Positions 35,300 to 64,000 of a stretch of 64,000 nt of DNA are shown piece by piece; position 1 is the first letter of the stretch; each line of letters starts with the position of its first letter. The stretch lies in contig NC_003074.8 of the NCBI RefSeq assembly GCF_000001735.4, positions 17,367,261 through 17,431,260 of the forward strand. Direction: 5' to 3'. The translations under genes and the position numbers were made by a program. This DNA comes from Arabidopsis thaliana (Eukaryota > Streptophyta > Magnoliopsida > Brassicales > Brassicaceae). A model generated the notes under the pieces. It made no database searches and had not been told where the DNA came from. It was given only the letters and a program-made list of their open reading frames with translations.

Positions 35300-35508
35300 A
35301 AAAAACAAGGGAGATTTGCAAAACTACACTTATTCTAATAACCTTTTGTAAAAGTGTCTTTTTCTGAAGGCCATTTTTAAAACTACCTCTTCTAATATGC
35401 CAAATGACTGTCTTACCCTCTGAATGATTAGGTTTCACGTTGGTTTCCTCTCCGATTTTCCTCTTCTTCATTTTGGCACAAACTTCTTCGTTTTCCTCTT
35501 TGATTTTC

Positions 35509-35690
35509 CTCTCCGATTTCACTCAAAATCGCCGGCGAATTTCCTCTCCGATTTCACTCAAAATCACCGACGAATTCCCTCTCCGATTTCACTCAAAATC
35601 GCCAACGAATTTCCTCTCCGATTTCACTCAAAATCGCCGACGAATTTTTTTTCTGAGAAACCCCAAAATCGCCGACAAATTTCCTCTCCG
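35509..35690 (+). repeat. 36-bp tandem repeat in the Ulp1-like gene leader
   Basis: About five copies of CTCTCCGATTTCACTCAAAA plus TCGCCGACGAATT follow one another. They lie upstream of the Ulp1-like ATG at 35869. The open frame they produce is repeat-driven and not a gene. A 15-bp repeat (TTTTATAATCGATTT type, about five copies) follows at 35776-35838. Confidence 0.8.
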
Positions 35691-35868
35691 ATAAACCTGT
35701 TCTTCGCTGAAGGATTCAGATCATTTCTCTACGACGCAAACAATCCCCAGAGATATCGATAGATCCGACGGTAACCGTTTTTATAATCGATTTTATAATC
35801 GATTTTATAGTCGATTTTATAGTCAATTTTATAGTAGATCTGACGCTGTTTCATAACATGTTTTGCAG

Positions 35869-38800
35869 ATGGATTCAGAGAGTGAAATCCTTACATTGCC
35901 TGAACAAATCTACAGAGAAGGTGAGGAATCTATTGCACTGGGAACCGTTCAACAATACTCGGATTGGAATTTAGTTAGTAAAGTAGAGGAAGCTTTAGGC
36001 GAGTGTTTATTTCAGAAGATTAGAAGTTCGTTTCTTGGTCCTCTAGTTGAATTGGGACCAAAAATGAAGGCTAAGAAGGGAATCAGATTTTCTGGAAAAA
36101 TCTTTCACTATCTCATGCAGCAGAGAGTGAAAACAAAAGGATCAACTCTTTGGTTTAGAGTTGATTCTCAACCTATCCGTTTCTCCTTGAGAGAGTTCTA
36201 TCTCACAACAGGTAATAAAGTTTTACAATCGTTTTTAAAGCTTAATTAACTGTCGTAGAATGATTTACAAGGCATTTGCATAACTGTTTGCGTAGTTTAC
36301 AATCGTTTTTAAAACATAAGTAAGTGTCATAGATAATTTACAAGGGATTTTAAAAGCTTTTAAAAGGGGTTTACTTCATTAACAATCGTTTAAGAAGCAT
36401 AAGTTAGTGGCAGATAATGATTTACAAGGGATTTTAAAAAGGGTATGCATGGTTTACAACCGTTTTTAGGCATAAGTAACTAGCATAGAATAATTTACAA
36501 GGGATTTTAAAAGCTTAAAGAAGTGTTAAACACGTTTACAAGGGATTTTAAAAGCATAAGTAAGTGTCTTAAAACGATTTACAAGGGATTTTAGAAGTGT
36601 TTGCATAGTTTACAATCGATTTTAAAAACATAAGTAAGTGGCATAGAATATTTACAAGGGATTTTAAAACCTTTTCTAAGGGTTAAACATGATTAGCAAT
36701 CGTTTTTTAAGCATAAGTAAGTTGAATAGAATGATTTACAAGAGATTTTAAAAGCTTTTAGAAGGGTTAAACATGATTTACAATCGTTTTTAAAGCATAA
36801 GTAAGTGCCATATAATGATTTACAAGGGATTTTAAAAGTGTCTGCATGGTTTACAATCGTTTTTAAAACCATAAGTTAATGGCATTGAATGATTTATAAG
36901 GGATTTTAAAAGCTTTTAAAAGCTTTTAAAAGTGTTAAACATGATTTACAATCGTTTTTAAAGTATTTACTATAAAACCTGTAATAATAGTCTCTACACT
37001 GTCTTTTGTTCATACAGGAATTCAATGTGAACCTGTTCATAGGGAACTTCGACGAAAGGGGAAAGATCCTGTAAAAGAACCATACTTTTGGGCTAATAAA
37101 GAATCCTATACTCTTGGTGATCTCGAAGATCGATTGTTTTTAAAACCTAAGGAAGGTGAACCTGCTGTTGAAGATGAAGAAAAGTTGTGTCTTGCTGCAG
37201 TAGTGTTGACTGAAGGAATTCTTTTGACACCATATGGAAAAGAGAAGATACCTTTGCCAAGATTGCAGCATGCTTCTGATTTTGAGATGTACACAGCCCA
37301 ACCGTGGGGTAAAGAAGCATTCAGTGTTCTATCAAATTCAATTCTGAGAATGGACGAGAAAACTTGGGCAAAAGAGAAATATGATTTGAGAGGATTTGGA
37401 CTAGCGCTAACAATATGGGTGTTGAGCGCAGTTCCAGCATTTGGTGCAGCATATGGAGTTAAAGATAAGGAATTCCAATCTGAATATCCATTGATATTGA
37501 AGTGGAAAAGCACTACTACTCCAGAGTTTTTCAAGATCGTAAACCTTGTAAATGATGTTTCTGAGGTAAGCTTTTGTCTATTTACAGAATTCTTTAAATG
37601 GTTTTGAGATTTGAAGTTCTGCTTTCTCAAGATTTGTAATGTTATTGTAACTTCGCAGATTGAGGTGAATACAATTATTGGAAACCCAGAAGACTTCAAG
37701 TCTTTAGTTCCTGATTTCCACACAGACGACGTAGAATTCCAACAGGTTTTGGAACTTGTTAAGATGGGCTACAGATTGAAGAAAACTGAATGGAATACAA
37801 GATGCGTTGATGTTTGTGTTGCCCTTGAAGAAGTAGGTCAAAACAAAATCAATAACAAAATATCTGATAGCGAGAAGCTTGACAGGATTTTGACAATCCT
37901 TGAAGATCTTAACAAGAGAGTCGAGCTGATTGAGAGGATTTTGGACATTAGAATGGAGGAAAAGAATAATCAGAGATCTGAGGAAGATGAAGAAAGAAAA
38001 CAAGAAGATGAAGGAGTAGAAAGACAACCAGAGGTAATTGTAAATGTTTCTTTAAAAGCTATTTGAAAGGAAATGTTTTACAATGTATTTTAAAGGTTAA
38101 ATACGTAGTAAACCTTTACAATGTACTCTTTTTTTTCGCAGGCTGAAGAAGAAGGAGGACTAGAAAGAAAAGCAGAGGTAATTGAAAATCTTTACAAGCT
38201 ATTTTATAGTCTACTAATTATGTTTTACCATCACGTTGGGTGTTTTGATTGACTTATTGTTTTTATTTTGTTACAGAATGACAATGAATCATTTGAAGAT
38301 TCAATCCGAGAGCCAAACACACAGTATGGGAGCTATCCGGGTGATGATGAAAACATCCAACGTGATGTTGGTGATGAATTAGTTGAAGAATCATCAAAAG
38401 TACAGTAATTTATATCTCTAAAAGTCTTACAAAAATGATTAGTATCCTTTTTTATAATTTTACATTCTGTTATCTTTTCAAGGATATGTCTCCTACTCCA
38501 CGATCCTCTACACTAAATTTCAATATTTTGTCTGAAGAAAGTCTGGATGTTCAAAAGGATAAGAAGAGAGTTAGCAGAGGAAGAAATGAGGTTAGCATTT
38601 AAAAAAATTTGTATTATCTAACCAAGTGTTTATAATATTTTTTTCAAATCTTTAAAAGTTTATCTTTCATGCAACTTCAGAACAAGAGAGTTAAACCAAG
38701 TGTTCATGCTGAGGATAATTTTAAAACAAGAAAACAGGTTAGTATTTGCAACAGTACTGTTTTTAAAAATTGTCAATTGTCTTGTTATGATATTTACAAG

Positions 38801-40567
38801 GGATTTTAAAAATACTTTTAATTGGTGTTTTTTACTATTCTAGATGCCGAGAAAGAGGCAGAAACAAGTTGATAGTGCTGATGTTGATATTCCAACAAGG
38901 AAAGAGGTTAGTATCTAATTTATTATGATTTTGAAAATTTTGTTTACAAGGTATTTTAAACATCTATTTTTTTTATTATTTTTGATAGGCACAAAGTAAG
39001 AAAAGGAAAATTATTGGCAATGATGGTGATAACGCTGATAATGATGGCGACAATGATGATTTTCAGCCCGCTCCGCAAAGAAAGAGTAAGCGGGGTACGG
39101 TTCCTTCCATTCATACCCAAGCACCTTTCACAGCTGAGAAGAAGAAGCATCCAATTTTGCATCCATTTGCGAAAGTTGATGCCACAAGACTTGAGAAATT
39201 GGCTGAATGGAAGAAGTCAAGGAAAAACAAGTGAGTTTTGTTAGTAAGATAGTGAGTTTTTTTTAATAATGGAAGAAGCATCATTGTTGACTGTTTTGTT
39301 GTTGTAGGCCACTATCAATCGCGGGAAATAATGTAGATACAAAGTGGTTTACAACCCTAGAGACGCCAGGGAAAGCAATCACAGCAACGGTATGTCTAAA
39401 AATCCTTGTAAAATTGGTAACCCATGAATTACATATAGTTTTTAAAGCATCATTAAGTTATTTACAAAAGTGATTTTAAAAAGGGTTACGTGGTTTATAA
39501 ACAATTTTAAAAGATTAGAAAGTGGTAAAGAATGATTTACAAGGTATTTTAAAAAGGATTTACATGACTTGCAATCGTTTTTAACGGATTAGAAAGTGGT
39601 AAGAATTGATTTACAAGGAATTTTAAAAGCTATTAAAAAGGGTTTAATTGATTAACAATCGTTTTAGAAGCAGAACTTAGTGGCATAGAATGATTTATAA
39701 GGGATTTTAAAAGCTTTTAAAAGTATTTAACTTGATTTACAATCGTTAAAAAGCATAAGTATGTGGCGTAGAATGATTTACAAGGTATTTTAAAAAGGGT
39801 TTACATTTTTTACAATCGTTTTTAAAGGGGTTTTCTAATATGATAATTTTTATTTTTGTTGTGTTTAGCATGTTGATGCAGCTTTGGAGTTGATGAAAAC
39901 GAGGAAGGAAAGCAATCCAGAATTATTCAAAAACAAATCAGTTGTATTTGTTGGATCGTCTTTCTTAAATGTGATTGATGAGTCATACATGGAGTTTTTG
40001 GATAACAAAGAGGGATTTCAGTTTCAGTCTGAAGAAATCAGTAAGCTGATAATAGAGGAAGAAACCAAGTGCATATTGGCTCATTTCTGTATCAAAGGAA
40101 AATGCTGGGTTGCCTTGCTCATCCACTTGGAACAGAAGACAGTTTGTATATGGGAATGTGCAGCTTCTTATTTAACAGAAGAAGTCAAGAAAAAATATGT
40201 TGCTGCCTACTCTATAGCTATGCCATACATTGTTCGGAACATCCTCAAAAAAGAAGACATGGATGTCTCTCCATTTAGCATCAAAGTCCTGACCACTTTT
40301 CCTCAGGTAACTTCTTTAAATATATCATAGTCTTAGAAATGAATATTCCGTAAGTCCTGACTTCTATAACTTCTTTGCTTAAGTAATTCTTTTGGTTTTT
40401 GGTTGTAGGCTCCTAGAAATGAAGAGTCTGGTATCTATATGCTGAAGTTTATGGAATGCTACTCAATGTATACCAGCCATTCAAACCTTGAAGGGAACAT
40501 AATTCAAAACGTTAGGAATAAATTGGCTGCTGACATCTTCACCGAATTAGGGTCAGTCACTTTGTAA
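35869..40567 (+). CDS. DUF1985/Ulp1-like (C48 family) protein of a Mutator element
   Basis: Twelve exons with consistent phases can be read: 35869-36211, 37018-37565, 37659-38033, 38142-38177, 38277-38399, 38483-38590, 38681-38737, 38844-38906, 38989-39230, 39308-39389, 39869-40306 and 40409-40567. The product is 857 aa. Residues 40-300 form DUF1985, the middle is highly charged and linker-like, and residues 660-857 are an Ulp1-type peptidase fold. Ulp1 enzymes remove SUMO using His, Asp, Gln and Cys. Here the usual HW is CW (Cys738), the Asp is Glu755, the Gln position is Ala806, and DCG is ESG (Ser812). It should therefore bind but not cut, if it is made. Introns are filled with the TTTACAAGGG...TTTTAAAA motif. 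The ATG follows a TTTTGCAG, so a leader intron is likely. Confidence 0.8.
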
Positions 40568-42384
40568 AAGTAGTAGACTTCTAATCAAAAAGTAGTGGAG
40601 TATAAGATAGATTTATCAGCTTTTGTTTCTTATTTCATAAAACTTTGTCATTTGAATATTTTATGAACATCTGTATGGAACAAGATTTATGAAGTTTATT
40701 TAGTTCAACTCCAGTTTTACAAAATTACTGTATAATGGTTGTTTGGGTTAACAGGTGCTTTGATTTGAATGGAAAAAGACTTTAAACATGCTTTTAAACA
40801 GGGTTTTTAAACGATTTACAAGCTGCTTTATAAGGAATTTGATAGTGTTGAAAAAGCTGCAATTGCGGTTATTATGAAAAAAAATTACAATCGTTTTTAA
40901 AATGATTTACAATCGTTTTTAAAAAAGATTTACAATCGTTTTTAAAAGAGATTTACAAACGATTTATAAGCTGTTTTAAAAGCGTTTTAAAAGTGTTGAA
41001 AAAGCTGCAGTAACTGTTATTATGAAAAGCTTTACAACCGTTTTTAAAATGATTTACAAACGTTTTTAAATGAGAATTTCAACCGTTGAAAAAGTTACAG
41101 TAATGTTAAATACTGTATCTGTTACTAATTGGGCCTAGGCCTGTTATTTAGAAAAACAAACTGTTTTAGTTTAAAAAAAACTAAAAGCCCAAAAAACACT
41201 AAAGCCCTAAAATTCAGTATAACCTAAAAACAAATTAAACAGGGATTGGCTGCTGACATCTTCACCGAATTAGGGTCAGTCACTTTGAAAAGATTTACAA
41301 CCGTTTTTAAAATGATTTACAACCGTTTTTAAATTGATTTACAACCGTTTTTAAAATGATTTACAACCGTTTTTAAAAGAGAATATCAACCGTTAAAAAA
41401 GTTACAGTAATGTTAAACACTGTATCTGTTACTAATTTGGCCTAGGCCTATTATTTAGAAAAAAGAAACTGTTTTAGTAAAAAAACACTAAAAGCCCAAA
41501 AAACACTAAAGCCCAAAAATTCACTATAACCCAAAAACAAAAAAGGAAGGGAACCGTGAAAAGACAACAAAAAAGTAACAAAAAAAAAAAAAAAAGAATA
41601 CAAACTGTCGTCTTCGTCTTCTTCCTTTCAACAATCTGAAAAAAATCTGATTATCCAGCAAAAAGGAAGCAATTGAAGGTAACTAATTTACGAAACTGAA
41701 GTTTAACATTTGGGTTTGTTCGATTTTTGCCGAATCTCTTTTTTGTTCTAGCATTTCTAGGTTTTTCGGTTGAAAACGAAACAAGTAAAATAAATTGATA
41801 TTTGGGATTTTGAAGGAGTGTTGAAAATTGTTATATAAATTTGACAGATTTATGTTTTAAAGTTTGATATTTGGGTTTCAAAAACCTTCAAAGAAGATTT
41901 CAAATGCCGATTAACTTCTCTGTTGTAGCAATTTCAAAGTTTTTTCGTTTTGAAACTTTAACAGTAAATAGATTGATGTTTGGGTTTGTATTTTAATTTA
42001 TAGATCCTCACTTAATTTATGGGTTACCAGTTGATTGGAGTTGGTTTGGAAAAGGGTTTTTTGTTTCTATTTTCAGCGGTTGTGTTCTTTGAAAAGGATT
42101 AAAATTTTGTCTTTGGAATGGTTTCAAAACGGTCTTTAAAAAGGATTATGGGGTAATGACTGTGTTTTACAAGGGTTTTTAAAGTCTTAAAACGACTTGT
42201 AATGACTTTAAAAAATGGTTTTACAAGGGTTTTTAAAGTTTTTTAAACGACTTGTAATGACTATGTTTATGTTTCGAAAACAACAAATGCATAATAGATT
42301 TACAAAAATGGTTTTTAAAACCATTAAAAAAAACTGTGTTAATTTAATGACTGTGTTAATGTATTAAATCAGGTTTTGAGAAAT
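40568..42384. other. Spacer between the two DUF1985 genes, with internal duplication
   Basis: The spacer contains many ACAA..GTTTTTAAA motifs. A copy of the last exon end of the Ulp1-like gene (TTGGCTGCTGACATCTTCAC) recurs at 41246, against 40522 in the gene. The block CAGTAATGTTAAA...CTGTTTTAG at 41098 recurs at 41405 (period about 307 bp). The leader of the next gene begins near 41600 with a CTTCGTCTTCTTCC-type stretch. Confidence 0.6.
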
Positions 42385-43927
42385 ATGAGTACAAAGAAAC
42401 TTTTCTTCCCTAAAAGACTGTTCCAACCAGGCAGCGAAGTAGATAATATTACAAGGGTATCAAAGCATTCATCCTTCAAAATTGTCTCGACTGTCAGGAA
42501 AGCTTTAGAGCCGATAGAGTTCAACACATTAATGGGCACATTCTTGGGTCCTATAGTGGAATTCGCTGAAATGGACTTGGCATTTTCAAGCCATATCGTT
42601 CATCATTTACTCCAGAGAAGAATACTAACCAACAATGACAAATTGTGGTTTGTATTTGCTGATCAACCTATGCGATTCTCCCTGAGAGAGTTTATCATAA
42701 CAACAGGACTTCCAATGGATGATGCATCAGGAAGCAGTCCAAATGTGAAGAGAAAGAAGAAAGAAAAGTGGTGGATAAAAGATAATCAGACTTTGAAGGG
42801 AAAGCAGAAAAAAGATGTGTGGATTAACAAGGAAATGACTTTTTTAGATCTTACATATGTTTTGGAAAAGCGTTCCAAAAAAATGCAGCCAGAGGAGAGA
42901 CTGAGATTGGCGGGTTCGTTACTAGTGGAAGGCATATTGCTAGCTCGAAATCCGACTACCATGCTGTCAATTGAGAATCTGAAGAGACCTACTGATTTCG
43001 AAAAGTTCTGTAAGTATCCATGGGCGCAGATTGTGTACTCATATTTGGTAACTGAAGAGAAGAGAATCGGTAATGACTATTTGTTAAGGAAACAATATGG
43101 TCTATTTGGATTTGTTCAATCAATTCAGATATGGGCATTATCATCGATTCAGAAGTTGGGAGAAAAGTTTGGCACTAGAGATGAATCATCTAGTGGAAAT
43201 ATTCCATTAATTCTCTAATGGAGATCAACATCGTCTCCAAGTGCAAAAGCTATAACAATGATAGCAGATGGTGACAAGGTACATTTTCTTAGTTGTGGCT
43301 TTTTTTATGTTTTAAACACTGTTTATAAATAAAGAGTATGTTTTACAATAGTTTTTACAATCAAGTTTTAAAGATTTACAAAGGGTTAAAAGCAATTTAA
43401 ACTATTTACAACGAAATTTTAAAAGGTTAATTAAGAATTGTGCATTATTTTTACACAGTTTGGAATTTTATTTATTTTTACAGGTTGAAGTGACACCAAT
43501 AGTTGGTGTTCATAATCATGAATACGAGCACTTGGTTTCACAGAAGAATCCTGAAGACAAGGATCTGTTGGATGTTTTTGATCTTGTGATCAAAGGATAT
43601 AGAATGAGCAAGAAGGATTGGTGTCAGGGATGGATTCAAGTGGAACAAGGACATCAAGGAAGAATTTATCATGTCTTGAAACCTGCAATTGAAACAGTTG
43701 TGCATCAAAGCAGAAAAAGAAAATCAATGTCCTTTGGTGAGAAGGTAAAACTGGTATATGAAAATTGTGAGGTTCTTAAGAAGAAAGTTGGAAGGCTGGA
43801 GGGCTATTTAGGCATCCAAAGAGTTCCTGCCAGTTATACTAGAGAAGAACAAAAAGAAGAGGACGAAAAAAAGGAGCAGGAAGAAGAAAAGCAAGAGGAA
43901 GAAGGAAAAGAAGAGGAATTAGAAAAG

Positions 43928-45340
43928 GTATGTGTTTTTACAAGGGATTTTAAAAGCTTATAGATCGTGTTTTAAAGATTTTTAGCCGTTTTTAAAAGAT
44001 AGGCAGTGTTAGATATGTATTTACAAGGGATTTTAAAGACTTCTTAATGGGGTTTTAAAAGATTGAAATTCGTTTTTAAAGGATAGGCAGTGTTCGATAA
44101 GATTTTACAACGGATTTTAAAAGCTTTTTAAAAGTGATTTACATGAGTAACTTGTAGTTATAAAACTTGTAATTTTATATACAGGTTGAATACAGAGGCG
44201 ACGAAGGGACAGAAAAACAAGAAATCCCCAAACAAGGCGATGAAGAAATGGAAGGGGAAGAAGAAAAGCAAGAGGAAGAAGGAAAAGAAGAGTAATTAGA
44301 AAAGGTATGTGTTTTTACAAGGGATTTTAAAAGCTTATAAATCGTGTTTTAAAGATTTTTAGCCGTTTTAAAAAGATAAGCAGTGTTAGATGTGTTTTTA
44401 CAAGGGATTTTAAAGACTTCTTAATGGGGTTTTAAAAGATTGAAATTCGTTTTTAAAGGATAGGCAGTGTTCGATAAGATTTTACAACGGATTTTAAAAG
44501 CTTTTTAAAAGTGATTTACATGGTAACTTGTAGTTATAAAACTTGTAATTTTATATACAGGTTGAATACAGAGGCGACGAAAGGACAGAAAAACAAGAAA
44601 TCCCCAAACAAGGCGATGAAGAAATGGAAGGGGAAGAAGAAAAGCAAAAGGAAGAAGGAAAAGAAGAGGAAGAAGAAAAGGTATGTGTTTTTACAAGGGA
44701 TTTTAAAAGCTTATAAATCGTGTTTTAAAGATTTTTAGCCGTTTTAAAAAGATAAGCAGTGTTAGATGTGTTTTTACAAGGGATTTTAAAGACTTCCTAA
44801 TGGGGTTTTAAAAGATTGAAATTCGTTTTTAAAGGATAGGCAGTGTTCGATAAGATTTTACAACGGATTTTAAAAGCTTTTTAAAAGTGATTTACATGAG
44901 TAACTTGTAGTTATAAAACTTGTAATTTTATATACAGGTTGAATACAGAGGCGACGAAGGGACAGAAAAACAAGAAATCCCCAAACAAGGCGATGAAGAA
45001 ATGGAAGGGGAAGAAGAAAAGCAAGAGGAAGAAGGAAAAGAAGAGGAAGAAGAAAAGGTATGTGTTTTTACAAGGGATTTTAAAAGCTTATAAATCGTGT
45101 TTTAAAGATTTTTAGCCGTTTTAAAAAGATAAGCAGTGTTAGATATGTATTTATAAGGGGTTTTAAAGACTTCTTAATGGGGTTTTAAAAGATTGAAATT
45201 CGTTTTTAAAGGGTAGGCAGTGTTCGATAAGATTTTACAACGGATTTTAAAAGCTTTTTTAAAGTGATTTACATGACTAATAACTGTGTCCTGGCTTGTA
45301 TTTGGGAACTTGTAATTATTTATACAGGTTGAATACAGAG
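43928..45340 (+). repeat. 377-bp exon-intron unit amplified four times
   Basis: The donor GTATGTGTTTTTACAAGGG recurs at 43928, 44305, 44681 and 45058, a period of 376-377 bp. Each unit has one intron and one exon starting GTTGAATACAGAGGCGAC that codes a Glu/Lys-rich peptide. The first three copies are nearly identical and the fourth diverges. Copy 1's exon has a TAA at 44293. The low divergence implies recent unequal crossing-over or replication slippage. Confidence 0.92.
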
Positions 45341-45429
45341 ATCATCATTCTACTTGCAATGTTGAAGAAACAGAAAAACAAGAGAATCCCAAACAAGGCG
45401 ATGAAGAAATGGAAAGAGAAGAAGGAAAA

Positions 45430-45883
45430 GAAGAAAACGTAGAAGAACATGATGAACATGATGAGACTGAAGATCAAAAAGCATATGTAATTTTGTCAGA
45501 TGATGAAGATAATGGGACTGCACCCACAGAGAAAGAATCACAACCTCAAAAAGAAGAAACAACAGAGGTCTGCATTCCTTAATTGTTTAAAAAGACATGA
45601 TAAAATTGTCAAAAAATAAAAATTTGTTTTGATGTTTTGGTTTACAGGTTCCAAAAGAAGAAAACGTAGAAGAACATGATGAACATGATGAGACTGAAGA
45701 TCAAGAAGCATATGTAATTTTGTTAGATGATGAAGATAATGGGACTGCACCCACAGAGAAAGAATCACAACCTCAAAAAGAAGAAATAACAGAGGTCTGC
45801 ATTCCTTAATTGTTTAAAAAGACATGATAAAATTGTCAAAAAATAAAAATTTGTTTTGATGTTTTTGTTTACAGGTTCCAAGA
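45430..45883 (+). repeat. 227-bp exon-intron tandem duplication
   Basis: GAAGAAAACGTAGAAGAACA begins at 45430 and at 45657. Each copy spans one acidic exon and the following intron with TCTGCATTCCTTAATTG. Only a few bases differ. It adjoins the 377-bp array, so this part of the gene is a hot spot for internal duplication. Confidence 0.9.
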
Positions 45884-46553
45884 GAGACCAAGAAAGATGA
45901 TGAAGATGTTAATCAAACACCACTCTCTACGCAAGAAGAAGAAATCACCCAGGGACAGAGCAGTCGTAAGTTCTTTTTACATTCACAGATGATTTGCCTT
46001 GATAAACAACTTCTAAATATTTTTGTTTTTGTTTTTGTATCAGTTCAAACTCCTTTGACGCCGGTCATGTTGAGTAAGGAAGTAATGGAAGAAATTGACC
46101 TAAAAGTTAAAAAATGGGCGAAAAACAAATTAATAAGAGATCTACTATCGTCACTTGAAGAAGTAAGTTAAATTACATCATTGTTTTGCTGCAAAAGATT
46201 TTAATTTTAATCATTTTGAAATTTTTACATTTCAGATTCTTTGGCCCGACAGTAAATGGCAAAAAGTCAAAATTTGGGATATGTGGAACGAGAAGAAATA
46301 CAAATTAGCATTAAAGAAAGCAACGTTACTCATTCATCCTAACAAACTGCCTCGAGCTCATCCAGAAGTGAAATACCTAGCTGAACAAATCTGCAAGATA
46401 ATAATGGTTAGTGTTAAACTCTTCTTTTGTATAACGATATATCTTTAAAAACTTGAATATTATTGTTATGCAAAAAATAACTTACAGGTTGAATTTTATT
46501 TGCAGGTAGAGAAGGACAGAGCTACTAAGGCAAAAATGGATTTAGTTCTTTAG

Positions 46554-47146
46554 ACTGACTTATTTCAAACATGTTTATTTTACTTTTGTTATTTGGAATC
46601 TATGATTGTACTTGTATTTTAATTATGACTGTCAAATCTAATCAAAATGCTTTACTATTGTCAACTGTTTATGGTTTTATAAGAATTGTCATGATTTACA
46701 AGTAATTTTAAAGGCAGAAACAGCTTACATGGTTTGCTATCGGTTTTTAAGGATAATAAAGTGGTAAACCATGATTTACAAGGGATTTTAAAAGCTTTTA
46801 AAAGGGGTTTACTTGATTAACATTCGTTTAAGAATAATAAGTTAATGTCAGAAAATGATTTATAAGGGATTTTAAAAGCTTGTAAAAGTGTTTAACTTGA
46901 TTTACAATCGTTTAAAGTATATGTAAGTGGCATAACGAAAGATTTACAAGGTATTTTAAAAGGATTTAAACAGACGTTTTAAACAGGATTTTACAAGAGA
47001 TTTTAAAAGATAAAATATTGGAATAACCTTCAAAATTACTTGTAAAAGTTTGATAGTAATTTTAACAAACGAGAGTAATGACACGACACAATGAAGAAAA
47101 TATTAAAAACCCAACAATATTCAATTCTTTGGAGATAAAGATATAT
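46554..47146. other. Spacer between convergent MULE genes, motif-rich
   Basis: The spacer holds about ten copies of the ATTTACAAGGGATTTTAAAA motif in a non-genic setting between the DUF1985 pseudogene and the transposase 3' end. I see no coding sequence. Confidence 0.6.
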
Positions 47147-49844
47147 CTAAATTGCAGCAACACAAGTTGATTTGTTGTGACCCGACTGACCACACCTACT
47201 GCATTTGTGTAATTTTGGTTTTGGCTGAGACCGTCCATGCTCCCAAACAGAAGGTATCCTCTTTTTCTTCCGTTTGCCAGTAGGTACACGAGTAGAAGGT
47301 GGGAGACAAATAACTTCACTAATAGTTTCTGGAATCTCCCAATATTCCATATCACCATTTGGGTGAATGCTCTCTGAATATGCTTGACGCCACCTGTAAA
47401 TTACAGCGATGTAAACTGAGATTAAAACCACATAAACACAGATAAAACCATAAAAAGAGATATTAAAACATTTTAAAACGCCTGTAAAGTTGTGAAGAAT
47501 AGAGATAAAACCTGTAAGTAGAATGAAACTCATCAACAAACATGTTTTCGTTCAGATTGATATGTTTAGCAGAAGCAATTCCATGTGCGCAAGGAAATTT
47601 ATCAATATCAAACATACAACATGTGCAAGTCCTTTTGTCCAGATTAACCAAATGCGTTTTGGTATCTCCTTTTACCTCAAACTCTTCTTGATTAACTTGA
47701 CAAACCTCAAGCCATCGTGTTGAAGTATCATATGACGCTTTCATTTTCTTCCCTACATTTATAGTAACAGCAGACGGATGTTGACTACTCTCTTCACGTC
47801 GTTCATTAAACCATCTTGTCATAATAGATCTAATTGACTCAAATAGGCAAACAACCGGATACTCGCGGTTCTGTTTCAACAAGGCATTAACAGATTCAGC
47901 TAGATTAGATGTCATGATGTTGTACCGATTTGAAGGAGAATAAGCTCGAGACCATTTCCTAACATCTACCTCGCAAAGATATTGTGCTAACTTTTTATCA
48001 CTATTAGTGATTTCCCAGAACAAAGAATCAAATTCTGTCTTCGTGTAAATTCTAGAAGCCGCATAGTAAACTGGAATAAGTGAAGAACCTCTGAAATGGG
48101 TTTCCAAGTTTTTTTGCAAATGAAAAGTGCAAAGTCCATGATGAGCAAGTGGATAATTCCCTGAAAGTCTGCTTGCAATAGAAGCAGCTCGGTCAGACAC
48201 AAAAACTAAATCATTCTCATCAGGGATTATATTCAGCAAACACTTCAAAAACCAGTCCCATGACGCGTCATTTTCAGAGTCAACTATTGCAAAAGCAATA
48301 GGATACAAATTAAAATTCCCATCCTGAGCTGAGGCACCAAGCAAAGTCCCTTTAAACTTTGATGTCAGATGGGCACCATCAATAGATATGACTTTTCTCA
48401 TCAACTTATAACCTCTAATTGATGCACCAAAAGCCAGAAACGCATACTTAAACTTATTAGCAGAATCTTTTTTGAAAAAAGTGATAGAACCTGGATTCGT
48501 CACTTGTACCCTGTGGAACCACCTCGGTAAAACCTCAAAACTATCATCAGGTAAACCCCTCGCAAGTTCTGCTGCATGTTTTTGAACTCTCCAAGCCTTC
48601 GAATAATTGATTCCAACTCCATGATCTTTTCTAAATATTTCTATCAGCTGTTTAGGTCTGAGGGGAAGCTTTCCTCCTTCAAAATGGTTACTTATCAATC
48701 TTCCTAATGTCCTTGCAGATGCTTGACGATGACTAACATTCCTTAATGAAGAGTCACAACTGTGATGACTAACATACTTCCGAATAACATAACTCTCGGA
48801 TCCACCAGCCCTAGTTGCACGTAGTCTCCAACTACAGTTTTCATCAATACAATGAAGAACATACCTCGTGAGATCTGATTTCACCGTATGAAACTTAAAG
48901 CTGTGCTTCACTGCAAACTTCCGCAACGTGAATACCATTTCATCTTTGTCTTTGAAAATTTTTCCAATAAACAAAGAATCAGCATCACTTAGACCAGTTG
49001 AAAACGCAGAACTAGAATACTGTTGATCAAGAATACTAGATGTTTCAGATACACACGCCTCAATAATCCTAGAGGTTAACCTCGGCTGCCAAAATAAAAA
49101 GCTTACCTCAAACATCAATCTATCTTAAATAATGATTTTACAAGGATTTTTAAAAGGGGTTTAAAAACGTTAATAATGATTTTACAAGATTTTTTAAAAG
49201 GATTATTACCTGAGTAGTAGATGCAGAATGAGAAGCAAAAGGATTTGAAGTCGTCTCAGCCTGTAATAAACTCACTCACTGACTTAATAATGATTTTACA
49301 AGGATTTTTAAAAGGGGTTTAAAAACGTTAATAATGATTTTACAAGGATTTTTAAAACGATTAGTACCTGAGCATTAGGGACAGAATGAGAAACAAAAGG
49401 ATTTGAAGTAGTCTCAGCCTGTAATAAGCACAATCACTGACTTAATAATGATTTTACAAGGATTTTTTAAATTATAACACAAGAAGGTTATTGAAAAACC
49501 TGCTCAACTGTCACAGAAATTTGCTCTACAATCAAACATAACTGAAGCAATCCTCCACTCTGTGAGAATTTGTGCATAAAAGTTGCAAGCTGTCTATCGT
49601 TCCTAATATAAAGAGGATGAGATTGTATGGTTGTAGACGTGGAGACTAACTTGTAACTAAGCTTCAAAGAATTGGTTGAACTATCTATTTGAAAATCCTC
49701 TACAAGAATATCAACCAACGCGTGATAGGTAATGTGCTCATCAATGAGCACTAAAGAAGCTCCCAAATCAATGTCTAATTCAAATTCCCAAGTCATATTG
49801 TTTGTCAACTTCCACAAGCCACAAACAGAATACAATTCTAGCAT
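47147..49844 (-). CDS. Mutator-like (MuDR family) transposase, intact
   Basis: Five exons keep phase: 49844-49500, 49418-49368, 49260-49210, 49085-47512 and 47393-47147, coding 755 aa. Exons 2 and 3 are duplicates of 17 codons each (AETTSNPF..SHS). Domains run from a PB1-like N-terminus through a MuDR zinc-type DNA-binding region (near 220-260, LHCIDENCSW to HHSC) and the DDE catalytic core (Asp385 in DGAHL, Asp447 in SDRAAS, Glu546 in NLAESVN) to a SWIM finger (Cys636-x-Cys638, Cys648-x-His650). A CCHC knuckle (C738-x2-C741-x4-H746-x4-C751) closes the protein. It moves DNA by cut-and-paste in the nucleus and makes 9-bp target duplications. I find no stop or frameshift, so it may be active if expressed. 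Confidence 0.9.
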
Positions 49845-50704
49845 TATAACCTGATAAGATAAATAACAACAAAATCAACACCCACAAAAACACTGTCACT
49901 ACAAAGAGAAGCAAGGTTTACAAATCGTTTTAAAGCGTAAGTAAGTAGAATAGAATAATTTACAAGGATTTTAAAAGCTTTGAAAAGTGGTTAACATGGT
50001 TTACAAATCGTTTTAAAGCGTAAGTAAGTAGCATAGAATAATTTACAAGAGATTTTAAATGCTTTGAAAAGTGGTTAACATGGTTTACAAATCGTTTTAA
50101 AGCATATGCAAAAGAGGTAAACACTAAATCAGAACCAAAATCTATTACGAAATAGTATAACGAATTCACATAAGCAAATCTATCACGAAACAGTATAACG
50201 AATTCAAAAGGATTTTAGAACAGTATAACGAATGTACAAGGATTTTAGAAACAAATTCAATCATCAAATCTCAAACAAAATTCAAATTCGAAGCTGAAGC
50301 AAATGTCAAACTGTCGATTGAATCAGGATTCAAATAACGAGTTCACATAATCAACAACAAAAATCGAATAAACCAATTCGAAAACGAAGATTTAAGCTAA
50401 CATTATAAAATCAAACCTGGGAAACGCAAGAGATTCGACGGCGACACACAGCTCTACTTACGACGGCGAAGATGGGTTTTCACGGCGAGTAAACTCATTA
50501 TTTCCGACGGCATGGGATTCAACGGCATTCACAATTTCCGATGGAGGAAGAAGAGAGAGAATGAAGAAATGAATTAGGTCTGTGGATAGCTCATTAAGGG
50601 TAATTTGGGGAGAAAAGTATTAGAAAGGGTAGAAATGAAAATGGGGAAAAAAAGGGTAGAGTTGCAAAAGGGCATTGAAAAAAGGGCATTAGAGTGAATT
50701 ATTC
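49845..50704 (-). other. 5' region of the transposase gene and right end of the element
   Basis: The region contains the transposase leader on the minus strand and two copies of a segment of about 100 bp with TTTACAAATCGTTTTAAAGC (49920 and 50000). GA-rich sequence (GACGGCGAAG, GAGGAAGAAGAGAG) runs to the element end at about 50704. This GA-rich leader on the opposite strand mirrors the TTCTTCGTCG-type leaders of other MULE genes. Confidence 0.5.
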
Positions 50705-50713
50705 AAAAAACAA

Positions 50714-51427: not shown

Positions 51428-52041
51428 GGGAAAAATGTCAAAACAAATCACGAACTTTCAAATTTGGGACGATTTAATTTTGAATTTCAAAAAAAACAAA
51501 TAAATCGTAATTTTCTTGTTGACTTTCGAAATAAATAACAAAGTTTTTGTTGACTTGTCATTTGAGTCATGTCGTTAAGTAGGTTAACAAAAAAAATTTA
51601 CGGCGTTAATGTCTCCTTTATCTCCTCTGTTAGAACAAAAAAACGTTGTTTATTGCAGTTCGTTTTGTCTGTTGACACAAATTTAAACCCTAAATCCCCA
51701 AATCGATTTTATTATCTGCGATTTTGAAGTCAATGTGGGTCTGTGATTTTGAGATAATAAAATCGATTTGGAGATTTAGGGTTTATATTTGTTTCAAGAG
51801 ACAAAACAACGTTGTTTTGTCTCTTCAATAAACGACGTTGTTTTGTTCTAACAGATCAAATAAACATTAACACCGTAAAAAAATTCTCTTAACCTATTTA
51901 ACGATATGACTCAAATGGCAAGTCAACAAAAACTTTGTCATTTATTTCGAAAGTTAACAAAAACTTCACAATTTATTTGTCGAAGTTTAAGATTAAATCG
52001 TCCCAAATTTGAAAGTTCGTAATTTTTTGACATTTTTCTCT
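51428..52041. mobile_element. Fold-back Mutator-type MITE with 9-bp target duplication
   Basis: Arms of about 290 bp (51428-51716 and 51752-52041) are inverted copies around a loop of about 35 bp. Outer ends read GGGAAAAATGTC and, on the other strand, AGAGAAAAATGTC. The flanks are exact 9-bp duplicates, TTTCAATAC at 51419-51427 and 52042-52050. A 9-bp duplication with long inverted ends points to mobilisation by a Mutator-type transposase. There is no coding capacity. Confidence 0.88.
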
Positions 52042-52050
52042 TTTCAATAC

Positions 52051-52862
52051 TATCTTTTTCAATTATGTTATTTTCTCTTTCTCATTTTTATTTACCCTCT
52101 CTTTTATTTTTTAATGACCATTTACCCATATTTTGAAAATATTTTAGGTTAACAAAATAAAATATTGATTTGTCCCGTCTAAAATATTTCCGTCAAAAAT
52201 TTCCAACAAAATTTATTTTTGAGAAAAAATACTCTCGATATATTTTTTTAGCGGGAACTAGATTTACAAAGATTTTTGAATGATTTACAAGAGTTTTAAA
52301 ACCCTATTAAAACTCTTGTAAATTTTGTCATAACCTTTTGTAAATATTCACAAGAGTTTTTCAATGGTTCAAAAAGAGTTACAAATGTATTCAAATTTTT
52401 ACAAATTTTTTTAAGAGTAAAAAAATGGTTTAAAGATTTTATAAGAGTTTTAAAAAGATTTACAAAAGTTCCTAAAATCCTTGTAAATCCTTTAAAAACT
52501 CTTGTAAATATTTTAAAATTATTGTAAAAGATTTTAATATGATTTACAATTAAAGAGATTTTAAAATATTTACATATGTATTTAAAGATTTTATAAAAAT
52601 TTAAAAAAAAATTAAAATAATTTATAAAGATTTTAAGAAGTTTTAAAATGATTTATAAAGCCTTTTAAACACTTTACAAAGCTTTTAAAAAATTTTATAA
52701 GGTTTTTTAAGAGTTTTTAAAAATTTCTTTACAATTTTACAAAGATTTTTAAATATATTTTTTTTGCTGGAAAATATTTTATTACGGGAAAAAGGTTTTG
52801 GTGGGAAAAACTTTTTTGACCGGGAAAAAAATAATTTTGTTGTCTGTCATTTTAAGGAAGGA
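52051..52862. repeat. Cluster of TTTACAA/TTTTAAAA motifs outside the Mutator element
   Basis: From 52255 to 52750, GATTTACAAGAGTTTTAAAA-type units occur in both orientations (also TTTTAAAACTCTTGTAAA). They resemble the repeats that fill the introns of the element at 35309-50704 but lie outside its proposed end. No gene is present. The stretch 52051-52254 is AT-rich and plain. Confidence 0.7.
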
Positions 52863-62368: not shown

Positions 62369-64000
62369 TTATCACTTATGCCACTTTTTTTAAAAAACTG
62401 ATCTGGACTGCCATCAGTGAATGTCACCGAAAATGTGATATACCAGTTGTACCCTTAATGAGTTGATTAAAAAAATAAAAAAGAAATTCAAAAGCTAAAT
62501 AAAGAAAATCGAGATTCTCCGTTCTCTCTTCTTCGTCGTCGTGTTCTTCTTCTTGCGTCGACGTTCATCTTCTTCGTCGGCCACCATCGATTCCGGCCGC
62601 CGCCGACTTGAAATCCGTCGTAAAAGGCAACGAATTAGGTCAGTTTCTTCTCATATTTCCTTTGACATTGGTGCATTGTGATTTTAGATTAGGATTTTGA
62701 ATTATATATAATTCCCAGATTCAATTTGATAGTTTGATGATTGGTTTGCAAAGTAAAGAGTAATCGATTAGAGGTTGCCGAAACGTTATTTGAGGTGATG
62801 AGCAAAGGAATGTAGGTTGAATGTGAGTTGAATTTGAATTCCGAGATTTCATATTAAAGATTTGGGGGGTTTCATGTTAGTTGACAAGATCATGAAGAAG
62901 GTTGCGATTGATGAAGCTTCTGTGAAGTTGAAACTGAGTTACAATCTGTCTAAAGTTAGGAGAGAGACATATATTGTAGATGATGAGGATGTCTTTATAT
63001 TTTTAACAGAATCTGATGAAGAGAGTCGGATTCCTGTTTTGCATGTGGAGAAATTAAATGGTATAGGAGTTGAGAGGAGAGAGGAAATTTCTGTACCGGA
63101 GCGTCGAAGTTCAGTTGGTGTAAATGTAAGAAAAGATGATGTTTTAAATGAAGTATGTGAGATGGTGCATGATGGATATGATAATGATGTGAATGATTGT
63201 GAGAATGTAGTAGGTACGGAGATCGTGGCTGTCGAAAGGCCGATGGAAAGGCCGGTGAATTCTGTTGAGGAAGAAGATGAGGATGATAGGATTGATTATG
63301 ATGATATTCACAATATTCCACGAAGTGTAGAAGTTACTCCGCAGGTTATAGAATGGGATGATGGTACGGGTATTGAAATTGGTCAAGAATTTTGTTCAAG
63401 GGAGGCTGTGTGGGAATTGGTTAACAGAGCTGCAAAGCAAGAAGTTTTTGGAGTCTATACTATTAAGTCAGACCCGTTGAGACTTATGCTACGATGCCGC
63501 CAAGCTTCTAAAGGGTGTACTTGGTATCTAAGAGTTGCGAGAACTAAGAAATCTCATTTTTGGAGTGTTAGAGTGCATAGAAAGATGCATACATGCTCTC
63601 GGAGTGTTGAGACTACAAGCAACAGTATACAGCGAGGCACACCAAGATTGATAGCATCGGTTTTGCATTGTGACTATCCCGGAAATTTAGAGACCCCAAC
63701 TCCAAACAACATTATGTCGATTGTAAGAGGAAGACTTGGGGTGCATTGTTCATACTCCACTGCCTTAAGAGGCAAAATGCTACATGTTAGTGATGTGCGA
63801 GGGACTCCGGAAAGAAGCTACACGATGTTATTTTCTTATCTTTACATGTTAGAGAAGGTAAATCCAGGGACAGTAACTTATGTGGAGTTGGAAGGAGAGA
63901 AAAAGTTCAAGTACCTCTTCATTGCATTAGGCGCTTGCATTGAAGGTTTTAGGACAATGCGGAAAGTGATAGTTGTGGATGCAACTCATCTTAAAACTGT
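62369..64000 (+). mobile_element. Mutator-like element, left part, runs off the window
   Basis: The boundary is estimated from TTTTATCACTTATGCCAC near 62368, similar in style to the ends of the 35309-50704 element (cytosine-rich runs, ATGCC, TTTT tracts). A GA/CT-rich leader (TTCTTCGTCGTCGTG) follows at 62520-62640. The right end is outside the window, so target duplication cannot be checked. Confidence 0.5.
62874..64000 (+). CDS. Mutator-like (MuDR family) transposase, partial at window end
   Basis: An open frame of 375 codons from the ATG at 62874 continues past the window with no stop. The N-terminus looks like the PB1-like domain of MULE proteins (VKLKLSYNL to EDVFIFL), then a long acidic linker, then the MuDR zinc-type domain (LRCRQASKGCTWYLRV to MHTC) and the helical region (IMSIVRGRLGV). 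The first catalytic Asp is in VVDATHL at the window edge. The protein is related to but clearly different from the transposase at 47147-49844. An upstream exon is possible. It is divergent to SELT. May correspond to At3g47310 (memory). Confidence 0.85.
   Translation, partial: MLVDKIMKKVAIDEASVKLKLSYNLSKVRRETYIVDDEDVFIFLTESDEESRIPVLHVEKLNGIGVERREEISVPERRSSVGVNVRKDDVLNEVCEMVHDGYDNDVNDCENVVGTEIVAVERPMERPVNSVEEEDEDDRIDYDDIHNIPRSVEVTPQVIEWDDGTGIEIGQEFCSREAVWELVNRAAKQEVFGVYTIKSDPLRLMLRCRQASKGCTWYLRVARTKKSHFWSVRVHRKMHTCSRSVETTSNSIQRGTPRLIASVLHCDYPGNLETPTPNNIMSIVRGRLGVHCSYSTALRGKMLHVSDVRGTPERSYTMLFSYLYMLEKVNPGTVTYVELEGEKKFKYLFIALGACIEGFRTMRKVIVVDATHLKT

Follow-up and report, generated by a model that had tools for sequence, protein, structure and literature searches.

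Short motifs in noncoding tandem repeats are the binding sites of VANC proteins, which remove methylation (PMC5735166 and PMC10398659, both in part); how they lift silencing once they are bound to DNA is given as an open question in PMC5735166 (in part). VANCs that bear an Ulp1 domain are known as KIU, and Kaonashi (KIU) VANDALs carry VANC genes with a transduplicated Ulp1 domain (PMC13317346, in part). Here we describe a 15,396-bp mobile element at positions 35309-50704 (plus strand) of a 64,000-nucleotide stretch of the Arabidopsis thaliana genome (C3:17367261-17431260; "the window" denotes this whole stretch). We consider it quite likely that this is a VANDAL/Kaonashi-type Mutator-like element (MULE) without terminal inverted repeats (non-TIR) that encodes its own sequence-specific, putatively anti-silencing system, consisting of two DUF1985 proteins, one extended by a dead Ulp1 domain and the other by a captured J domain.

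The element resembles VANDAL21 (Hiun) in having a DUF1985 protein of the VANC21 fold, a transposase gene nearby on the opposite strand, and short motifs in noncoding tandem repeats (as in the part of PMC5735166 consulted). It differs in having its own motif, with the VANC21 motif YAGTATTAY and the VANC6 motifs, as published in PMC5735166, absent from the window element; in having two DUF1985 genes, against one at the VANC21 locus among the matches listed; in the added dead Ulp1 and J extensions; and in its transposase, which is just 34% identical to that of the VANC21 locus. The likeness to Kaonashi elements lies in the joining of DUF1985 and C48 in one gene (PMC13317346, in part) and in the transposase, for which identity to the best-scoring matches outside the family is 34-36%; one of these, at C1:9006673 (36%), lies beside C48 and DUF1985 matches. 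Unlike Kaonashi, the window element has lost the catalytic His, Asp and Cys of its Ulp1 domain and has a second DUF1985 paralogue with a J domain.

Boundaries and copies of the element

A perfect 9-bp target-site duplication, AAAAAACAA, borders the element on both sides (35300-35308 and 50705-50713). The element begins with GGGAGATTTGCAAAACT and ends in GGGCATTAGAGTGAATTATTC, without a strong terminal inverted repeat: its termini show 58% inverted identity over 40 nt, and among the 25 of 43 inverted pairs that were listed, none lies at the element ends. Searches of the 119.7-Mb A. thaliana assembly with the two ends of the block (592 bp on the left, 471 bp on the right) gave at least 50 places for the left end and at least 43 for the right. 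Paired by hand, these matches yield 16 places at which the two ends share a contig and lie no more than 22 kb apart, spanning 1.0 to 21.2 kb, and further places show a single end. The left-end search also returned a run of many partial left-end copies at C3:11703518-11711253.

Copies A to K (A being the window copy) were fetched complete and copy L in part. The left terminus GGGA(G/T)ATTT(A/G)CAAAA(C/T)T is found in 12 of 12 copies (A-L), and the right terminus (G/A)GGCATTA(A/G/C)AGTGAATTATT(C/T) in 10 of the 11 fetched to the right side (A-K), copy I having lost its right end. A perfect 9-bp duplication adjoins these same termini in seven of 11 copies (A, C, E, F, H, J and K), and copies B, D and G have none when both sides are checked. 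By these termini and flanking duplications, the boundaries at 35309 and 50704 are exact and the block is a single mobile unit, as a preliminary description of this DNA had proposed. Other copies with the same ends, which that description had suggested looking for, exist at the 16 paired places, and the same three genes are present in other copies. A chance neighbourhood of separate elements is ruled out by the shared ends, the 9-bp duplications and the same gene order elsewhere.

The family ends also delimit some small, non-autonomous elements. Four loci are 1.1-1.2-kb elements of this kind, three of them also among the end matches, with zero to one mismatches in the 17-nt left end and three to five in the 21-nt right end. 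The 9-bp duplication is perfect at one of the four, carries one mismatch at another and is absent from the remaining two.

Three genes and their selection

Gene 3 (47147-49844, minus strand) encodes a 755-aa Mutator-type transposase with DBD_Tnp_Mut, MULE and SWIM domains, all above the Pfam cut-off, and splices open over five exons, so the intact transposase reported earlier is confirmed; for this gene as for the others, the splice model is predicted, on the basis of open frames and GT-AG sites. It is open in four of 10 copies (A, B, C and F, out of A-I and K). The transposase was assigned to its clade by domains and pairwise identity, without a tree. Judged by its transposase, its 9-bp duplication, the lack of a long terminal inverted repeat and a gene that combines DUF1985 with Ulp1, the element would be classed with the VANDAL/Kaonashi non-TIR MULEs.

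Gene 1 (35869-40567, plus strand) is predicted to splice over 12 exons into the claimed 857-aa protein, with a VANC-type DUF1985 domain (PF09331, 68.9 bits) and an Ulp1/C48 domain (PF02902, 145.1 bits). It is open in one of 10 copies, namely A and not B-I or L, and copy K is without most of the gene. The Ulp1 domain (exons 11-12, 39869-40567, with an intron at 40307-40408) reads CWVAL, IWEC and ESGIY for HWVAL, VYDA and DCGPY when set against L057, a C48 gene of the same genome with an intact triad; the catalytic His, Asp and Cys are thus replaced by Cys, Glu and Ser. The triad of an active Ulp1/SENP protease is therefore absent from the window copy, which agrees with the earlier statement that the protein is protease-dead and rules out an active deSUMOylase. 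Family copies show the same losses wherever the position is in frame, some being cut earlier by stops or frame shifts, and in a diverged copy on C4 the His and Asp are lost in the same way and Phe stands at the Cys position; the loss of the triad is older than the spread of the family. A comparison of the Ulp1 part with PDB sequences gave no meaningful match.

Gene 2 (42385-46553, plus strand; 11 predicted exons) joins a DUF1985 domain of the VANC21 fold to acidic repeat exons and an auxilin-type J domain. The acidic exons lie within 377-bp (43879-45280) and 227-bp (45426-45885) tandem repeats, the number of which varies between copies. The J region (exons 9-11, 46044-46553) is similar to an Arabidopsis auxilin-like protein (PDB 3ag7, named F9E10.5; E 2.1e-13) and to auxilin (PDB 1xi5; E 1.4e-7), and a Pfam scan gave no J-domain match at the end of the gene. 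Searched against the genome with E values up to 10, it matched 13 loci of the element family and eight places outside it, of which six are 34-41% identical and two 29-32%, and C2:4371635 matches just the linker exon ahead of the J domain. We take the eight outside places to be probable host auxilin-like genes, of which locus L054 alone was read. L054 shares both phase-0 intron positions of the J region (LSTLQY/VLWP and DMLK/EAWN against LSSLEE/ILWP and KIIM/VEKD, introns at the slashes). Because these positions are the same, the J exons most likely came from an auxilin-like host gene by capture of DNA and not via RNA. Arabidopsis proteins of this type presumably go by the names JAC1 and AUXILIN-LIKE. 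Unlike in those proteins, the J domain of gene 2 sits behind a DNA-binding DUF1985 domain and acidic repeats, and even the better host matches are 34-41% identical over the main J exon.

The HPD (His-Pro-Asp) tripeptide of J-domain co-chaperones is required for work with HSP70. It is kept at 11 of the 13 family J loci and is absent from the window copy, which has HPN, and from copy K, which has HRD; HPN as a family-wide trait is ruled out, as it is private to the window copy among the 13 loci. The exon 10 acceptor is kept at 13 of 13 loci and the donor at 12 of 13 (not read in K), the diverged C4 copy included. Besides HPN, the window copy of gene 2 has two in-frame stops, at 43216-43218 in exon 1 and within 44185-44304 in exon 3. 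Under the exon model used, the gene is open in none of the eight copies fetched whole (A-H), so that none of these eight has all three genes open; the first exons are absent from copies I and K, and L was fetched partly. The J-domain gene of the preliminary description thus holds as a feature of the family and is broken in the window itself, and the occurrence of transposase, dead Ulp1 and J-domain gene together in one element stands.

The DUF1985 domain common to genes 1 and 2 is the VANC DNA-binding fold, and the two genes encode paralogous proteins related to VANC21. One profile search was circular, its alignment holding VANC21; it was not used and another search took its place. With respect to selection, we compared the genes with the diverged C4 copy, which is itself decayed, skipping codons with stops. 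The ratios of nonsynonymous to synonymous substitution rates (dN/dS) are 0.53 (0.34-0.85) for the DUF1985 part of gene 1 and 0.44 (0.28-0.66) for that of gene 2, 0.62 (0.28-1.54) for the J part and 0.86 (0.40-4.17) for the Ulp1 part. For the transposase it is 0.69 (0.31-1.96), a value that comes mostly from exons 1 and 5 because exon 4 is hardly aligned in the C4 piece.

These values bear on two other explanations of the added domains. The first takes the Ulp1 and J parts to be passively captured fragments, as in Pack-MULEs, with DUF1985 and the transposase alone mattering. The dN/dS intervals of both parts do include 1, the Ulp1 triad is lost and gene 2 is open nowhere among the eight copies; the retention of HPD and of the exon 10 splice sites across the family, the C4 copy included, and the open Ulp1 exons of the window gene 1 speak against it, and we regard it as rather unlikely. 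The second takes up the idea of the preliminary description, interference with host SUMO or chaperone pathways, and has the Ulp1 and J proteins act as decoys. In its favour, the dead Ulp1 domain is open in the window copy and could bind SUMO and leave it uncleaved, and HPD is widely kept; both proteins, however, have the VANC DNA-binding fold, a free decoy would have no need of the dense motif array described below, and for the Ulp1 part no selection can be demonstrated (0.86, 0.40-4.17). Altogether this is very improbable. Its SUMO side is not supported, given the loss of the catalytic residues wherever they are readable, the diverged copy included, and the shared DNA-binding domain, while on its chaperone side a link is possible, with an effector recruited to the element's own DNA being the more likely form and the window gene 2 broken.

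Motif arrays and neighbouring DNA

The window element has a dense short motif in noncoding tandem repeats, as is typical of VANC targets: TTTACAA is nearly confined to noncoding DNA, with 71 occurrences in 7,865 positions there versus 1 in 7,188 coding positions, and the longer form TTTACAA-N4-TTTTAAA is found 53 times on the plus strand and never on the minus strand. An 18-mer, TTTACAAGGGATTTTAAA, has 720 exact copies in the genome, and its reversed control has none. Arrays lie in gene 1 intron 1 (36212-37017; gaps of 31, 32, 41-43, 84 and 95 bp, phased at 10.5 bp) and intron 10 (39390-39868, a second phased array), both on the plus strand, in the gene 2 introns (43928-45327, plus strand; tandem units of 377 bp that carry motifs at 83-84 and 209-210 bp), and upstream of the transposase (49845-50110; motifs 41-42 bp apart, ATCG alternating with GGAT/GAGA types), with motif copies also in the spacers between genes 1 and 2 (40568-42384) and genes 2 and 3 (46554-47146).

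Helical spacing of motifs is said to have been described by Sasaki in 2022 (EMBO J). Here, a period of 10.5 bp fits best across the element as a whole, and likewise in introns 1 and 10 of gene 1, in the introns of gene 2 and in 49111-50110 (the transposase introns and upstream region). Over 42 successive gaps the observed phasing is 0.63, versus a maximum of 0.37 in 20,000 random shifts of up to 5 bp, and it persists when distinct gap lengths only are used (p = 0.0019). By region, four of six are phased: introns 1 and 10 of gene 1, the first of the gene 2 units (p 0.024, from two gaps only) and the transposase upstream region. Within the arrays, core types TCGT/ATCG and GGGA/GAGA tend to alternate about 42 bp apart (36222-36951 and 49917-50090). 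TCG, CCG or ATCG follows TTTACAA in 20 of 72 cases in the window element and in 0 of 67 in the four small elements, a set chosen by way of a GGGA-type search; in these, TTTACAA stands on both strands, often 31-32 bp apart.

MULE ends and subterminal repeats can bind transposase. The arrays might accordingly have nothing to do with the DUF1985 proteins and be mere AT-rich tandem repeats or sites bound by the transposase, which would also fit their tandem-repeat nature and the two unphased spacer arrays. Against this, they run throughout introns and spacers and not at the termini, the strand bias is 53 to 0, 10.5-bp phasing appears in four of six regions, and the layout is as described for VANC targets (PMC5735166, in part), so that we hold this explanation to be quite unlikely. 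The DUF1985 proteins probably read the element's motif arrays.

To the right of the element, a second TTTACAA/TTTAAAA cluster (52268-52754) is without the ends of the element family and is possibly another small MULE; the 52-53 kb bin holds eight TTTACAA on the plus strand and five on the minus. A large imperfect, hairpin-like inverted repeat with arms of 42-128 nt at 51442-52028 is perhaps a small non-autonomous transposon. At 62838-64000 an open frame leaves the window at a MULE transposase (C3:17430620-17432089) that is 33% identical to gene 3, and a DUF1985 match lies further right at C3:17435681; there is probably a second VANDAL-like element at the right edge of the window.

A putative two-protein anti-silencing system

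In the mechanism we favour, both DUF1985 proteins would bind next to each other on one helix face of the TTTACAA-N4-TTTTAAA arrays and would strip silencing marks from the element family, so that the transposase gene would be expressed and mobilise elements with these ends. The dead Ulp1 part would be kept, if at all, for binding and not for cleavage, and the J domain from the auxilin-like host gene would recruit HSP70 to the bound DNA.

Several observations weigh against an anti-silencing system of this kind. The four small elements were selected for motif clusters, and copy J, a 1,040-bp derivative with a perfect duplication at its family ends, contains no full motif. Both spacers are unphased at 10.5 bp (p 0.18 and 0.42), 11.3 bp fitting better, and motif gaps are not independent of each other because the arrays are tandem repeats. 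Gene 2 alone gave no match to PDB sequences, its structure model was built on an alignment containing VANC21 itself, the dN/dS intervals of the J and Ulp1 parts include 1, and the gene models are predictions.

A more specific and more tentative proposal, which we put forward as a possibility still on the doubtful side, is that the family has evolved a two-protein VANC system, a dead-Ulp1 VANC and a paralogue with an HSP70-recruiting J domain, each perhaps reading one of the alternating motif types. The J domain would then be an effector that opens silenced chromatin, a transposon-made counterpart of the host SUVH-DNAJ activator. In the host SUVH1/SUVH3-DNAJ1/DNAJ2 system, a J-domain protein at methylated DNA promotes expression, which provides a precedent (PMC8395315, in part). 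This is an analogy only, as the host has a methyl-reader complex, in contrast to a J domain on the transposon's own motif-binding protein. Literature searches on the VANC21 structure and on locus names returned nothing useful, and no report of a VANC/J-domain fusion was found in searches that covered titles and abstract beginnings of the papers listed and were thin on subscription papers; VANC-type systems are already known, and the J-domain fusion is apparently unreported within this literature.

If the proposal is true, a transposon has captured a host chaperone-recruiting module. The J-fused and dead-Ulp1 VANC paralogues point to effector partners, HSP70 in the one case and a SUMO-binding or structural role in the other, and the family's own motif provides a target for testing them. 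The element would in this way offer a testable lead to how anti-silencing proteins lift gene silencing.

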